Below are positions 47,878 through 53,377 of a stretch of 64,000 nt of DNA, one piece after another. Location of the stretch: assembly GCA_009702045.1 (NCBI GenBank), contig WLIV01000007.1, forward strand, positions 1 to 64,000, written 5' to 3'. The notes beneath the pieces are model-generated. The model had not been told where the DNA came from. It saw nothing but the letters and a program-made list of their open reading frames with translations, and made no database searches. Made by a program: the position numbers and the translations under genes. Origin of the DNA: Actinomycetota bacterium (GTDB lineage Bacteria > Actinomycetota > Acidimicrobiia > Acidimicrobiales > Ilumatobacteraceae). How positions within the stretch are numbered: position 1 is the stretch's first letter; each line of letters begins with the position of its first letter.

Positions 47878-47981
47878 AACTGGAATGTTACTCGTTGGTA
47901 GCCTGACGCTACGCATGGTCGCTCATGCGAGCGGCGGAGCGTGCCGATACATCTTCACGAGCACATTGGAGTACCCGATCC

Positions 47982-49928
47982 GTGAAAATGCCGACCACCA
48001 CCCGAACGACCGTGATCGCACGGTCGCGCGCCCGTGCGCTCGTGTTGAGTGCGGGCCTGGTGGCGGGTCTGGTGGCCTTGCCGTGTGTCGTCGGGCGCCG
48101 AGTCGAGGCCAGCACGTCGGTCCCCGCGGCGGCAGTGGTGTGCCCCGGACCCACCTACACCGTGCTGTCGGGTGACTACTGGATCCGTATCGCCACCAAG
48201 AACGGGGTGACACTCGCGGCGGTGTTGGCCGCCAATCACGCCGTGGCGACCACCGTGATCCACCCCGGTCAGATCGTGTGCCTGCCCGCCAGCGCAGTCA
48301 CCACCACGGCCGCTGTTCCGACCACGGTGAACGCCCCCGGCCCGGTGGTCATCTTGCCGGGCGGCGTCCTGCCGATCAAACAGTTCCCGGTACAGGGGCT
48401 GTGCTGGTTCAGCGATAGTTGGGGTGCCCCCCGTTCGGGTGGGCGCCGGCACGAGGGTGTCGACCTGATCACCAAGATGGGTCAGAAGATCTATGCCGTC
48501 GACGATGGCGTGCTCACCAAGCGGTACATCGATGCACCGGGTTCGCTGTCGGGCAACGGTTGGCGGCTCACCCGCGCCGATGGCACGTACTTCTTCTACG
48601 CCCACCTCAGTGCGTTCGCCGACGGACTGATGGTTGGTTCACCGGTCGTCGCCGGGCAGATCATCGGACTCGTCGGTATGACCGGTGCCGCCGGCACACC
48701 GCACTTGCACTTCGAAGTACACCCCGGGGGCGGCGCGCCGATCAACCCCACGCCCACGGTGACGGCCGTCAACGGCTGCAAGATCACCGCGATCCCCGCG
48801 CAGCCTGCTGCGGTCGCTCCTGTGCCGACGACCACTGTGGCTCCGGCCACAACGATTCCGGCCACAACGATTCCGGCCACAACCACGACCACCGTGGCGT
48901 CCCTTCCGCCCCTGGCGCCGACGGCCAACTCGCGCTGGACGTTCATTGCTCCGCAGACGGTGCTGGACACGAACGGCGCACCGATGACCGCTGGCGCTGT
49001 GCGCACGGTGGCCATCACGGGTGCTCGCGGTTCCCTGGCCGGTGTGCCGGCGGTGCTGGTGCGACTGGTGGCTCGCAGTTCGATGATGTCCGGCCACCTG
49101 AAGCTCTACGCGTGTGGTGCCGCGGTGCCGGAGGCCTCAGCGCTCAACTACGTCCCCGATCGTGTCAACGCCACGGTGCTCCCGGTGCCGACCGGCCCGG
49201 CGGGTGTGTGCGTGGCGGCCAGCAGTTCGGTCGACGTGCGAATCGAAGTGCTTGCGTACGCGTCATCCACGGGTGTCGGCCTGCAGCCGATGGATTCCAA
49301 CCGAGCGCTCGATACACGGCTTGCTACCCCTCTGGCCGCAGGTGCCCCGATCACCCTGCCTACTACCCGGCTTGGGGTTCCGGCGTCGGCTACTGCCGTC
49401 ACGGTGTCGGTCACGCTGCTCACACCCACCGCACCCGGCAGCATCTCCGTTGGGCCATGTGGTGGAACGCCGTGGACACTTGCGTATGGCTCCGCGCCGT
49501 CGCAGATGATCGGTGGTGTGGTGCGGGTCAACGGCGCTGGGTTGTGCCTCTCGTCCACGACGACCGTGCACGTGGTCGTCGATGTCACCGGTGTGTGGGT
49601 GGGCGCTCAGCCGCTGGTGGCACTACCAGCGATGCGACTGTTCGACTCGCGCTTGTCAGAGGCGATCAGTTCGACGGATCGGCGAGTGCCGCTGACATTG
49701 CCGGCTGGCACGACGCGTGCCCAACTCTCGATCGTGGTGATCGGCTCACCGAGTTCCGGCGCGGTGTACGCCTGGAACTGCAACCGGCCGCGACCCGTGG
49801 CATCGGTGGCCTCATCGATCGGCCCACCGACGTCGGTGACGGTGACGATGGACGTCACCGGTGGAGCGATCTGTCTCGCGTCCAGCAGGAATGTGCAGGT
49901 CGTGATCGACGTGTTCGCAGTCGGCTGA
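47982..49928 (+). CDS. Secreted LysM/M23 endopeptidase with three C-terminal wall-type repeats
   Basis: A ~648-aa exported protein. Signal peptide (ALVLSAGLVAGLVALPCVVG), a LysM-like region (YTVLSGDYWIRIATKNGVTL), then an M23 peptidase with metal motifs HEGVD and HLHFEVHPGG. Next a Thr/Pro linker with PATTIPATTIPATT units, and three repeats of ~105-110 residues, each containing a DTR/DSR motif at the start, two Cys, and a V-x-V-x(V/I)-D/E-V end (VRIEVLAYA; VHVVVDVTGVW; VQVVIDVFAVG). Such repeats are common in secreted proteins of Acidimicrobiia. The enzyme should cut peptidoglycan cross-links. Start GTG 47982 or ATG 47988. Confidence 0.85.
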   Translation: MKMPTTTRTTVIARSRARALVLSAGLVAGLVALPCVVGRRVEASTSVPAAAVVCPGPTYTVLSGDYWIRIATKNGVTLAAVLAANHAVATTVIHPGQIVCLPASAVTTTAAVPTTVNAPGPVVILPGGVLPIKQFPVQGLCWFSDSWGAPRSGGRRHEGVDLITKMGQKIYAVDDGVLTKRYIDAPGSLSGNGWRLTRADGTYFFYAHLSAFADGLMVGSPVVAGQIIGLVGMTGAAGTPHLHFEVHPGGGAPINPTPTVTAVNGCKITAIPAQPAAVAPVPTTTVAPATTIPATTIPATTTTTVASLPPLAPTANSRWTFIAPQTVLDTNGAPMTAGAVRTVAITGARGSLAGVPAVLVRLVARSSMMSGHLKLYACGAAVPEASALNYVPDRVNATVLPVPTGPAGVCVAASSSVDVRIEVLAYASSTGVGLQPMDSNRALDTRLATPLAAGAPITLPTTRLGVPASATAVTVSVTLLTPTAPGSISVGPCGGTPWTLAYGSAPSQMIGGVVRVNGAGLCLSSTTTVHVVVDVTGVWVGAQPLVALPAMRLFDSRLSEAISSTDRRVPLTLPAGTTRAQLSIVVIGSPSSGAVYAWNCNRPRPVASVASSIGPPTSVTVTMDVTGGAICLASSRNVQVVIDVFAVG

Positions 49929-49937
49929 ACCGACCGC

Positions 49938-50798
49938 TCAACTGAACCCGCGCGAGTCCTGCTTGAGGGCGGTGTCGACCGACAGCGCCGCGGCCACGAT
50001 CAGCGAGTTGAGCGGCTGCGGAATCTGAGTGTGGATCTGCACGACATAGTTGTCCGCCGTCGTGAACATCGTCTTGGCGAGGCCCTCGAACGTCTTGGTG
50101 ATACGGGCGATCTCGGTGCCCTGGTGATCCTCGATGCGGAAGTTCCAGGCTCGCCAGTTCTCGGCCTTGATCGCGCCATACGTGTAACCACCGGCCTGCA
50201 GCGCGAAATGGATCTTGCCGATCATGTTCTCCTGCACGATGCGACCGATCTCCTGATCGTTGCCGTCGCTGACGATGACCGTGCTTTTCATCAACTTCGC
50301 CGGGCGGGTGATCCGCAACAGAACATGTCCTGCGTTGTCGGTGATCTCCAGCTTGTGGGTCATGAACTGGTCGAGGTTGGACAGCAAGCGAATGGCCTTC
50401 TTCGCTGCGCTCTGACCGACCTGGTTGACGGCAGCGATCTGCTGGCCGTCCTTGTTGAACACGCTGTACTGGTTGTTCAACTCGATCAGCTTGGCCTTCT
50501 GGTTGACCACCAGGATCGGCTCGGTGAAGATCGTGCCGCCGCCATGGAAGGCAGCGTCCTGGACGTTCGCCGAGCGGTACTTCTGATCGCCGTACAGCTG
50601 CTGCTGGATCTTGGCCGCGTCACCTTCGTTGCCGATGGTGAGGGCGCTGTCGAGCTTGTCGAGACCCTTGGGCTGCAGCGGGTCGACCCCCTGAACCCCG
50701 TTGTCGCTGACATGCTCTGTCCACGCGGTGCCGTTCCAGTAACGCATCTGGTGACGACCTGTGCTGTCGGGATACCAATTCGCCGGGGTGGTGCTCAT
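49938..50798 (-). CDS. DUF2510 plus phospholipid-scramblase-like protein
   Basis: A 286-aa protein. The N-terminus is a DUF2510 module (PANWYPDSTGRHQMRYWNGTAWTEHV), common in Actinobacteria and thought to aid membrane or protein interaction. Residues 80-280 match the scramblase/LURP-one-related beta-barrel (TEPILVVNQKAKLIELNNQY; RLLSNLDQFMTHKLEITDNAG; NFRIEDHQGTEIARI). A role in membrane lipids is suspected but unproven for bacterial members. It converges on the M23 gene with 9 bp between stops. Confidence 0.82.
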   Translation of the reverse strand: MSTTPANWYPDSTGRHQMRYWNGTAWTEHVSDNGVQGVDPLQPKGLDKLDSALTIGNEGDAAKIQQQLYGDQKYRSANVQDAAFHGGGTIFTEPILVVNQKAKLIELNNQYSVFNKDGQQIAAVNQVGQSAAKKAIRLLSNLDQFMTHKLEITDNAGHVLLRITRPAKLMKSTVIVSDGNDQEIGRIVQENMIGKIHFALQAGGYTYGAIKAENWRAWNFRIEDHQGTEIARITKTFEGLAKTMFTTADNYVVQIHTQIPQPLNSLIVAAALSVDTALKQDSRGFS

Positions 50799-50828: not shown

Positions 50829-50900
50829 CTCAGCGGAGTTCGTGCGCCGCACTGGTGGGCGCACTCACTTGGTTCGCAGGCTCAGCGGAGTTCGTGCGCC
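50829..50900. repeat. Exact 20-bp direct repeat around a gene's 3' end
   Basis: CTCAGCGGAGTTCGTGCGCC occurs at 50829-50848 and 50881-50900. The second copy encodes the last codons (AHELR-stop) of the phosphatase-like gene, so its 3' end has been duplicated 52 bp downstream. Confidence 0.8.
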
Positions 50901-51391
50901 ATGAGAATGACCTCACGGGCGAACGGGTCGAGCTGTCGCTTGGCGATGCGCTCGGTGAGGTTGATGCACAGCGACGGATCGTCGACCATGCCGCTCCAGC
51001 GGATGTAGCCGCCAAGGATGCCAATGAGCCGATCATCGAGGGACTCGTTGTGCACGATCACCTTCGTGCTCGCCTCCAGCAGAGTGTTGAGCTCCGTGTA
51101 GAAGGTCTTCAGCCACATCCCGAGGTCGTCGGTGCCGGTGAACGGCCGGTGCAGGTAGCGCAGGCCCAACTCGTCGTAGTTATGGAGGTTGTGGGGCGCA
51201 GGGATGATGCTGATCACGCAGCCGAAGCCGTTTTCGCGCAGCCAGATGATCTCTTCTTGACGGCGGACGCGGCGATGATTCTCGCCATACCCTCCGGGGC
51301 GCTCGCACACGGCGAGTTTGTCCTTCATGAACCACGTGAAGTTGCGCGGCGTGATGCCCAGCGCCCACTTCCCGCGCAGCCTGGGAGGCAT
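50882..51391 (-). CDS. Tyrosine/dual-specificity phosphatase-like protein without catalytic Cys
   Basis: A 169-aa protein with a PTP-like pattern: NGFGCVISIIPAPHNLHNYDELGLRYLHRPFTG (substrate strand and WPD-like loop), then KVIVHNESLDDRLIGILGGYIRW at the position of the P-loop (HCxxGxxR in active enzymes). The Cys is Asn and the Gly is missing, so phosphatase chemistry is unlikely; a binding or regulatory role is possible. Start ATG 51391 has GGAGGAAGG upstream. It lies 44 bp after tilS and may be in its operon. Confidence 0.7.
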   Translation of the reverse strand: MPPRLRGKWALGITPRNFTWFMKDKLAVCERPGGYGENHRRVRRQEEIIWLRENGFGCVISIIPAPHNLHNYDELGLRYLHRPFTGTDDLGMWLKTFYTELNTLLEASTKVIVHNESLDDRLIGILGGYIRWSGMVDDPSLCINLTERIAKRQLDPFAREVILMAHELR

Positions 51392-51435
51392 ACAGCCTTC
51401 CTCCACGGAATAGAGCAACGAATGTTTGGTTGAGG

Positions 51436-52353
51436 CTACTTGTTTTGGGGAGTGTTCGTCGGGGCGAACAGTGTGAGTTGTCGATGGCGTCGCGCCACCC
51501 GCCGACCACCACCCACCTCCGCCGCGACGGCCTCGCCGCGGGCCACGGCGAGGACACGTTCCACCGTGGCCGCGTCCGGGGGGTGATCAGCGGTCAGCCA
51601 GCGCCGCACAGCCCGCCGGGCCAAGGGAACGGGCGCGGCAGCCAGAGCGTTCGCATCGGTGGGGTCGAGGGCCGCCGCCAACTCGTCGAGTAGGTCGCTC
51701 TCGTCGCGTACCAGGTCGGCCTGGCGGGTGAGCACCGGCGTCGGGTCGCGACGCGACAGGTCGGCCAGCAGCGGCAGCAGTTCGTGGCGCACCCGATTCC
51801 GAAGGTGCCGCGGGTCGAGGTTGGAGGGGTCGTGGACCACCTCCAGTTCGAATGCGGCGCACAGCGCTTCGGTCTCGGCACGGCGCAGGGCGAGCAGTGG
51901 CCGACGGTGCCCGGGGCGCATGGCCGACATTCCACGGGTGCCGGCTCCACGCAGGAGGTTCACCAGGATGGTCTCGGCCTGGTCGTCGGCAGTGTGGCCG
52001 GTGAGCACCTCGTGTGGCAGCACCGCGAATCGGGCAGCACGCGCGCGGGCCTCGAGGTTCGGGCCGTCGGTCAGTTGCACCCGTTCGGAGCGGAACGCGG
52101 CACCGAAACGCGTCGCCGTGTTGCTCACCACCAGCGCCTCCTCGGCGGAACCCGGGCGTAGCCCGTGGTCGACGTGGACGGCGGTCACCTCGAGTCCGGC
52201 ACTGATCGCCAACACGAGCAGTGCTGTTGAATCAGCTCCGCCGGAGACCGCGCACGTGACGCGCGTGCCCGAGAGCGGGAAGGTGCAGCGCGCCAGCAGT
52301 TCGGCGCGCAGGCGCTCGGCGGAGTGCGCGAGCGTGGCGAGACCTGCGATCAG
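51436..52353 (-). CDS. tilS: tRNA(Ile)-lysidine synthetase
   Basis: Modifies C34 of tRNA-Ile(CAU) to lysidine so that AUA is read. The PP-loop is SGGADS and typical segments are VDHGLRPGS, GHTADDQAETIL and DPSNLDPRHLRNRVRHELLP. The start is unclear: no ATG/GTG/TTG lies between the preceding small gene and the PP-loop. A CTG at 52353 overlaps that gene's stop (CTGA), giving 305 aa; the alternative is a GTG at 52473, in another frame within the small gene. Confidence 0.88.
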   Translation of the reverse strand: MIAGLATLAHSAERLRAELLARCTFPLSGTRVTCAVSGGADSTALLVLAISAGLEVTAVHVDHGLRPGSAEEALVVSNTATRFGAAFRSERVQLTDGPNLEARARAARFAVLPHEVLTGHTADDQAETILVNLLRGAGTRGMSAMRPGHRRPLLALRRAETEALCAAFELEVVHDPSNLDPRHLRNRVRHELLPLLADLSRRDPTPVLTRQADLVRDESDLLDELAAALDPTDANALAAAPVPLARRAVRRWLTADHPPDAATVERVLAVARGEAVAAEVGGGRRVARRHRQLTLFAPTNTPQNK

Positions 52354-52496
52354 TCTTCTTCGCGGCGCTGGCGGCGGCCGGGGTACTGCGGGGCGACAAC
52401 CTTCTTCAGGTAGCCACCAATGATCCCGAACACGAGACCGACGGCGACGATCGTGAGGCCGACACCCAGCCACCAGTGGAAGATTTCCGCGAGCAT
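52350..52496 (-). CDS. 48-aa membrane peptide upstream of tilS
   Basis: A small gene between rsrA and tilS. ATG 52496 encodes one hydrophobic segment (WWLGVGLTIVAVGLVFGIIGGYL) and a basic/acidic tail (KKVVAPQYPGRRQRREED), predicted to be a single-pass membrane protein. The codon pattern is clearly protein-like, and the end overlaps the probable tilS start by 4 bp. Function unknown. Confidence 0.65.
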   Translation of the reverse strand: MLAEIFHWWLGVGLTIVAVGLVFGIIGGYLKKVVAPQYPGRRQRREED

Positions 52497-52551: not shown

Positions 52552-52803
52552 TCAGCCGATACGCCCGTCGCCGTCGAAATCCTCGCCGAAGCACAGCTCG
52601 ATCTTCGACAGCAGTCCGGGGGGGAACTCGTCCTGCTGACACTTCTGGCTGATCACCAGACGCAGCTCAGCGTGGAAGTCGAACGCCTGCAAACAGTCCA
52701 TGCAGCCACCCAGGTGTTCCCGGATCGCCTCGCGCTGGGACGCGTCGAGTTCGTTGTCCAGGAAGGTTTCGAGTTCGCGGAGGGTTTCGCTGCAGTCAGA
52801 CAT
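52552..52803 (-). CDS. rsrA: Zinc-binding anti-sigma factor (RsrA-like)
   Basis: An 83-aa ZAS-family anti-sigma factor. The H-x3-C-x2-C motif is HLGGCMDC (His30, Cys34, Cys37), with further Cys4 and one in SQKCQQ. Disulfide formation should release zinc and the sigma factor. The gene overlaps the sigma gene by 8 bp, giving coupled expression. The C-terminus is acidic ([13 protein letters not shown]). Confidence 0.9.
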
Positions 52804-53377
52804 CAGTTGCGGTGTGCTCGGGGCGGGTCAGGAGACCTCGCTCGGTGGCGAACTCGATCAACGCCTTCTGCATCGCTTTTCTTCCACGATGCAGCCGCGA
52901 CATCACGGTTCCGATCGGGATGTCGAGCATTTCGGCGATCTCCTTGTACGAGAACTGCTCGACGTCGGCGAGCAGTACGGGCAGTCGGAACGACTCCGGG
53001 AGGTCTTCCAGCGCACGCTTCACTTCGTCGCTGGTGAACAACTCGAAGAGCGTGTCTTCGGCGCTGCGTGACGCGACGTCCATCCCGCTGATGCGCTTGT
53101 AGAGATAGAGATCCTCGACGTCGGCCAGATCCGACTCCTGCACACGGCGTTGTTTGGCGCGGTAGGTGTTGATGTAGGTGTTGGTCAGGATGCGGAACAG
53201 CCATGCCCGCAGGTTCGTACCCTCGTTGAACGTGGCGAATCCGCGGTAGGCGCGCACGTAGGTGTCCTGCACCAAGTCCTCGGCGTCGGAGGGGTTGCGC
53301 GTCATACGCAACGCGGCGCTGTACAACTGCGGCGCGTACGGCATCGCCTGTTGTGCGAAGTCGCTGCGATTGGCCAC
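52796..53377 (-). CDS. sigR: RNA polymerase ECF sigma factor, SigR/SigH type
   Basis: A 193-aa thiol-oxidative-stress sigma factor. Region 2 is intact ([38 protein letters not shown]) and region 4 contains [32 protein letters not shown]. It resembles SigR of Streptomyces/SigH of mycobacteria, which control thioredoxin and mycothiol genes. No GGAAT...GTT-type autoregulatory promoter was identified with certainty. Confidence 0.93.

Follow-up and report, generated by a model that had tools for sequence, protein, structure and literature searches.

A probable binding protein with a predicted dual-specificity phosphatase fold and no catalytic cysteine, conserved across the class Acidimicrobiia

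The window analysed here, a 64,000-nucleotide stretch of an Ilumatobacteraceae genome, encodes on its minus strand (50882–51391) a protein that we interpret, at a probability of about 0.6, as an ancient and catalytically dead dual-specificity phosphatase (DSP) resembling DUSP23/VHZ, fixed in the class Acidimicrobiia as a single-copy housekeeping gene and acting as a non-catalytic binding module. Binding rather than phosphate removal is its probable mode of action, because the single gene is kept in nearly all sampled genomes of the class although the catalytic cysteine is missing. A phosphatase fold, a lost nucleophile and a gene under purifying selection together mark it as a pseudophosphatase. 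In the mechanism we propose, a flexible RPGG-x4-HRxxRR loop-helix and the remodelled end of the P-loop would dock an anionic ligand or a partner protein. This role would be independent of de novo folate synthesis, though the gene rides in a folE-folP-[gene]-folB-folK operon in most of the families sampled.

The minus-strand frame contains no internal stop and encodes 169 amino acids followed by a stop codon. Its translation matches letter for letter the non-canonical P-loop segment VHNESLDDRLIG (residues 113–124) and the GYIRWSGMV stretch (residues 128–136) on which a first-pass annotation of this DNA had based its proposal of a phosphatase-like gene. Direct reading places a Shine-Dalgarno-like GGAGGAAGG at 51396–51404 on the same strand, 4 bases upstream of the ATG at 51389–51391. 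Comparison of the window protein with seven relatives gave dN/dS values of 0.06–0.16, and all 28 pairs among these eight sequences fell between 0.06 and 0.24. The best 80 of 473 candidate relatives' loci encode proteins 66–100% identical to that of the window. Since dN/dS is low and relatives exist at such identities, the frame is a real gene, to which its predicted fold and presence in most genomes of the class also attest.

The neighbours named by the first-pass annotation lie where it had placed them, all on the minus strand. Upstream are tilS, encoding tRNA-Ile lysidine synthase (51436–52473; PF01171), an rsrA-like anti-sigma factor gene (52552–52803; PF13490, zf-HC2) and a sigR-like ECF sigma factor gene (52796–53377; PF04542 and PF08281). 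For context, the gene immediately downstream (49938–50798, minus strand) encodes a DUF2510 domain followed by a scramblase-like domain (PF03803), both assigned by Pfam. Farther along, a 667-amino-acid frame on the plus strand (47925–49928) resembles by eye a cell-wall peptidase of the LysM/M23 type whose long tail is repetitive.

Evidence for the DSP fold, which the first-pass annotation had suggested from strand and helix patterns, comes from a sequence profile and from predicted structure. Searched alone against Pfam and NCBIfam, the window protein matched no family at E ≤ 10, the DSPc family PF00782 included. Among 74 diverse family members PF00782 matched 10 weakly (best E 0.0042), and the NCBIfam search of members gave nothing useful. 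A profile built from these 74 relatives, however, matched the PDB entry 25xa_A at E = 2e-13, VHR at 5e-5 and DUSP23 at 0.007, the last over residues 11–27 only. In the profile alignment the P-loop region of the family falls opposite the HCxxGxGR of 25xa_A with the arginine in register. AlphaFold2 modelled the window protein with a mean pLDDT of 91.4 and a pTM of 0.86. In a second structural comparison the top match to the model was DUSP23 (2img; Z 17.7, rmsd 2.3, 144 residues aligned), followed by KAP (Z 16.7), Tk-PTP (15.6) and, lower down, SsoPTP (14.8), with other DSPs at Z 14–17. Placement within the DUSP23/VHZ subfamily is suggested by this top score, yet Foldseek ranks Cdc14 first and VHZ/DUSP23 third, and the sequence match to DUSP23 is weak. 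A relative from another class (locus L161) was also predicted to adopt the DSP fold (pLDDT 87.9; Z 15.9 to both DUSP23 and Tk-PTP), so that the profile and the predicted structures place both proteins in the PTP/DSP-fold superfamily.

The active site of this fold is degenerate. In the window protein, residues 114–121 (51029–51052, minus strand) read HNESLDDR against the HCxxGxxR of catalytic phosphatases, with asparagine (codon 51047–51049) at the position of the nucleophile. Column statistics were compiled from 164 unique domain sequences drawn from 248 loci, some genomes having been fetched more than once. The HCx5R signature of cysteine-based PTPs occurs in 0/164, which confirms the loss of the catalytic cysteine. 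H114 is invariant (164/164, no changes on the tree), and the adjacent nucleophile column is among the more variable of the alignment: Ala in 41 sequences, Gly in 31, Asn in 25, Arg in 20, Cys and Gln in 10 each, His in 9, Ser in 5, Met in 3 and other residues in 10. This column requires at least 42 parsimony changes, ranking 127 of 158 columns against a median of 25. Asn had been put forward as a hallmark of the family, but the family alignment gives it in only 25/164, 24 of these at ≥79% identity to the window protein and one (L213) separate. Homologues with an active cysteine at this position were also looked for. Cys is absent from 154/164 sequences, and none of the 10 that carry it has an arginine at Cys+6; these 10 include all six relatives from family f74, which belongs to another class and bears the motif VHCDxxxEWL.

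The rest of the P-loop has been remodelled too. Column 118, the glycine of HCxxG, holds Val, Leu, Ile or Phe in 159/164 sequences and glycine in none, while the P-loop arginine (R121) is kept in 112/164, the window protein included, and lost in 52/164. The active site is gone throughout the set, the asparagine is incidental and the nucleophile position drifts. Some residual anion binding in the old pocket may persist, since Cys is found at position 115 in 10 sequences and R121 is kept in most. For the first proposal, that phosphoproteins or phosphoinositols are sensed by way of the P-loop, we found no support: the glycine of the loop has been replaced in 164/164 sequences, and its arginine is kept in 112/164.

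The gene belongs to a family rather than being a one-off, as had been anticipated. We found it in 362/395 Acidimicrobiia genomes (256/268 in the good-quality subset), with one match per genome in all those listed except G276, which has two. The class is identified by named relatives, Ilumatobacter nonamiensis and Desertimonas flava, and by the taxonomy of Ilumatobacter. In a phylum-wide draw, 37/38 genomes of the class matched (the class total of 38 being read from the order of listing) against 6/358 outside it. The range is thus very largely one class, not the Actinobacteria at large to which the family had been attributed. Five of the six outside matches are in family f74, and the sixth is weak and partial; this candidate (G531, family f67, locus L162; E 5e-5, residues 24–72 only) was dropped because the iterated profile missed it. 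Searching 296 genomes of the phylum with the family profile at E ≤ 0.001 gave 30 matches, 26 in the class and four in family f74, and no canonical phosphatase, a result that is no proof of absence. In sum, the phosphatase fold, the lost cysteine, the existence of a family and its neighbours hold from the first-pass annotation, whereas Asn as a hallmark, the wider range and phospholigand sensing do not.

Several relatives required separate judgement. Loci in records titled Burkholderiales, Bifidobacterium breve and Acidobacteria are 70–86% identical to the window protein and come from metagenome bins, whose titles we take to be wrong. The f74 relatives (L157–L161, L266) carry VHCDxxxEWL, and the gene context of L161 differs from that of the class loci, this copy lying near bacterial sugar transferase and glycosyltransferase genes. 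Gene fusion was considered for long frames (e.g., 452 and 479 amino acids) and rejected in favour of probable out-of-frame extension in GC-rich DNA; where a FolP match exists near such frames, FolP is separate from the domain. An 864-amino-acid frame at L157 continues from the domain into a glycosyltransferase-like stretch; judged by eye, a frameshift is the probable cause.

Thirty-three genomes of the class, 20 of them listed by name, gave no match. Some of the 33 are assembly gaps, as in G028 and G154, whose contigs stop just past folP (L230, L232). Among the unmatched genomes listed, clean losses in place were found in all eight genomes of family f2 and in G342 of family f28; in one f2 genome (G362) the two parts of the locus lie on separate contigs (L225, L226), and two matches in G342 (E 0.04 and 0.10, at a loose limit of 1) are at chance level and were not counted. 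These nine genomes show that the gene can be lost.

Constraint within the family has moved from the P-loop to a loop-helix, ERPGGx4HRxxRRxEExxW (E30-R31-P-G-G-x4-H39-R40-x-x-R43-R44-x-E46-E47-x-x-W50). In the window this most conserved stretch of the family, comprising the loop and the start of the helix, is ERPGGYGENHRRVRRQEEIIW (residues 30–50; 51242–51304, minus strand). Positions with 0–1 changes on the 164-sequence tree are P15, W20, A27, R31, G33, G34, H39, R40, R43, R44, E47, W50, Y72, H114 and R159; R40 shows none, while R31, G34, H39, R43, R44, E47, W50 and R159 show one each. The acidic position D/E120 is also under very strong constraint, and R159 occupies what we take to be the position of the Q-loop residue Gln138 of DUSP23. 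Residues 31–40 hold several of the most conserved residues despite being modelled as coil with a mean pLDDT of 74, the lowest block after the N-terminus. Because top conservation coincides with coil and low pLDDT, we infer that the loop becomes ordered on binding. The fold suggests that this loop faces the degenerate P-loop.

A stronger version of this account is possible, though we hold it only tentatively. The protein may be class-defining for the Acidimicrobiia, a phosphatase fold rebuilt round a new invariant site (R31-P-G-G...H39-R40...R43-R44 together with H114 and D/E120) and serving either as the dedicated receptor of a single, universal ligand or partner in the cell or as an enzyme with new chemistry. 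If this is true, bacteria would have a pseudophosphatase fixed as deeply as a housekeeping gene is. The conserved histidine, arginine and acidic residues would also fit a new active site. We consider it unlikely, however, that the protein is a new enzyme in which cysteine chemistry has been replaced by a site of H39/R40/R43/R44, H114, E/D116 and D/E120, which might, for instance, hydrolyse a phosphorylated small molecule or carry out a transfer on it. The invariant or near-invariant polar residues, shared also by the Cys-bearing relatives of another class, and the position of the gene among enzyme genes of a housekeeping operon would suit such an enzyme. Set against this are the loss of the phosphate-binding R121 in 52/164 sequences, the replacement of H39 and R31 in a few relatives (L141, L163) and the lack of any recognisable catalytic motif.

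Gene order offers a further candidate role. We compared 57 loci of the class, one per genome and chosen to span many families (the window's own family, with two loci, is under-represented), with 14 reference proteins by tblastn and with the family's own profile. The common order is sigR, rsrA, DUF2342, tilS, hpt, (ftsH), folE, folP, the pseudophosphatase gene, folB, folK, DUF2520, panC and nadB. Of the reference genes, the closest on the upstream side is FolP in 49/57 loci and on the downstream side FolB or FolK in 50/57; both hold in 47/57. At L171, where the start codon of the pseudophosphatase gene overlaps the folP stop by 4 bp, hpt, folE, folP, folB, folK and DUF2520 were confirmed by Pfam, and ftsH, DUF2342, panC, nadB and sigR were labelled by eye. 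The window locus and L182, both from the window's family, are reduced to sigR-rsrA-tilS-pseudophosphatase gene-DUF2510. A homologous tilS cluster is present in 98/109 loci compared, mostly of close relatives of the window.

The setting between FolP and FolB/FolK, with the 4-bp overlap at L171, would suit a component of folate synthesis, for example a scaffold for FolP/FolB or the dihydroneopterin-(tri)phosphate phosphatase that is still missing. The gene for DHNTP pyrophosphatase was still reported as missing in most genomes in a 2007 survey (PMC1971073). Operon position had first suggested a role as dihydroneopterin-phosphate phosphatase, which was dropped after the co-occurrence test, and the folate reading as a whole is now highly improbable and largely refuted by co-occurrence. 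All nine genomes that have lost the gene possess FolE, FolB and HPPK, and at their loci (L217–L226) FolP runs directly to FolB or FolK, with gaps of 30–228 bp to FolB or, where divergence of FolB defeated tblastn, of 382–439 bp to FolK. Conversely, in the window's family the gene is present in 29/29 sampled genomes, FolE in 8/29 and HPPK in 17/29; neither enzyme was found in 10/29, including the single-contig, 99% complete G153, and FolE2 was found in one of the 20 genomes tested. Genus g137 (family f39) kept the gene in 6/6 genomes, in none of which FolE or HPPK was found. At least 16 genomes (10 of the window's family and the six of g137) therefore keep the gene without FolE and HPPK; most genomes are drafts, 92–99% complete, so that a single absence may be a gap, but the count spans many genomes. 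In G237 folE, folP, folB and folK are gone from both flanks of the locus and the pseudophosphatase gene is retained. Because the gene is lost where the pathway remains and kept where FolE and HPPK are missing, it is not tied to folate synthesis and does not co-occur with the pathway as a folate enzyme would.

Scoring of FolP itself was ambiguous, since PF00809 also matches frames of more than 1,000 amino acids, which are probably methionine synthase-like. In the window genome FolE and FolE2 were not found, which also speaks against a folate role; FolB and HPPK were found. A separate locus of this genome (contig C6, 50434–52011; L227) keeps folB-folK beside a divergent pterin-binding gene. This genome may obtain its pterin precursor from another source or through an unknown enzyme. 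The genomes without FolE and HPPK (family f1, e.g., G153, G008 and G354, and genus g137) look like folate auxotrophs.

Two further readings carry very little weight. An active cysteine phosphatase using another residue, such as Cys29 in the LAVCERPGG strand, is very improbable: Cys is found there in 104/150 relatives, but Ser in 36 and Ala in 10, and no CX5R stands at this place, so Cys29 was rejected as an alternative nucleophile on account of these 46/150 relatives. Least credible is a degenerating, functionless phosphatase relic, which the lost active site and the nine complete gene losses might suggest but which is refuted by conservation, given dN/dS of 0.06–0.24, presence in 362/395 class genomes, a pattern of constraint unlike decay and its survival in G237, where the folate genes on either side have gone.

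The preferred reading, a dead DSP acting as a binding module, can be set beside known phosphatases. DUSP23/VHZ, Tk-PTP and SsoPTP are among the closest solved folds to the window protein (Z 17.7, 15.6 and 14.8). DUSP23 and Tk-PTP are described as active cysteine enzymes in which acid residues and a glutamine outside the P-loop also take part in catalysis (PMC5965843); unlike them, the family has lost the cysteine (mostly), the glycine (always) and the arginine (52/164). The best sequence match, 25xa_A, annotated in the PDB as 'Dual specificity protein phosphatase family protein', shares with the family the W, LA and PGG of the early strands and loop. These elements are probably older than the rest since this active protein has them too. 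Unlike the family, it has an intact HCxxGxGR, and a 6-residue gap lies opposite the family's HRxxRR.

Among pseudophosphatases, the family resembles STYX and MK-STYX in having a DSP fold without the catalytic cysteine. These mammalian proteins are described as acting by binding other proteins (PMC8269279, PMC8907265). STYX keeps HGX5R and MK-STYX FSX5R (PMC8907265), and one Gly-to-Cys change is reported to restore activity to STYX (PMC8269279). In the present family, by contrast, remodelling extends to the remainder of the P-loop, and the nucleophile column has drifted. Reactivation by a single change is not expected here because the P-loop glycine is gone, as is the arginine in 52/164. PRL (PTP4A) phosphatases bound to CNNM offer an analogy for a DSP fold that may serve as a binding module: their active site binds an aspartate of the partner, and a pseudophosphatase role has been argued for them (PMC5427921). 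PRLs keep the cysteine and arginine and use both in binding (PMC5427921), unlike this family, which has no Cys in 154/164 sequences and no Arg in 52/164.

The pseudophosphatases described in PMC8269279 and PMC8907265 come from eukaryotes, and neither 'bacteria' nor 'prokaryot' appears in the main text of either source, the former a review. The titles and abstract openings among the literature matches listed include no paper about this family. The fold itself is ordinary; what is unusual is that a pseudophosphatase should have become fixed across a class of bacteria and carry a new conserved site. It would be a clear instance of the conversion of an enzyme fold into a housekeeping binding protein, in which the nucleophile was lost, its position drifts and the gene is kept. 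The invariant loop supplies a ready list of mutants, and the nine natural losses a comparison set.
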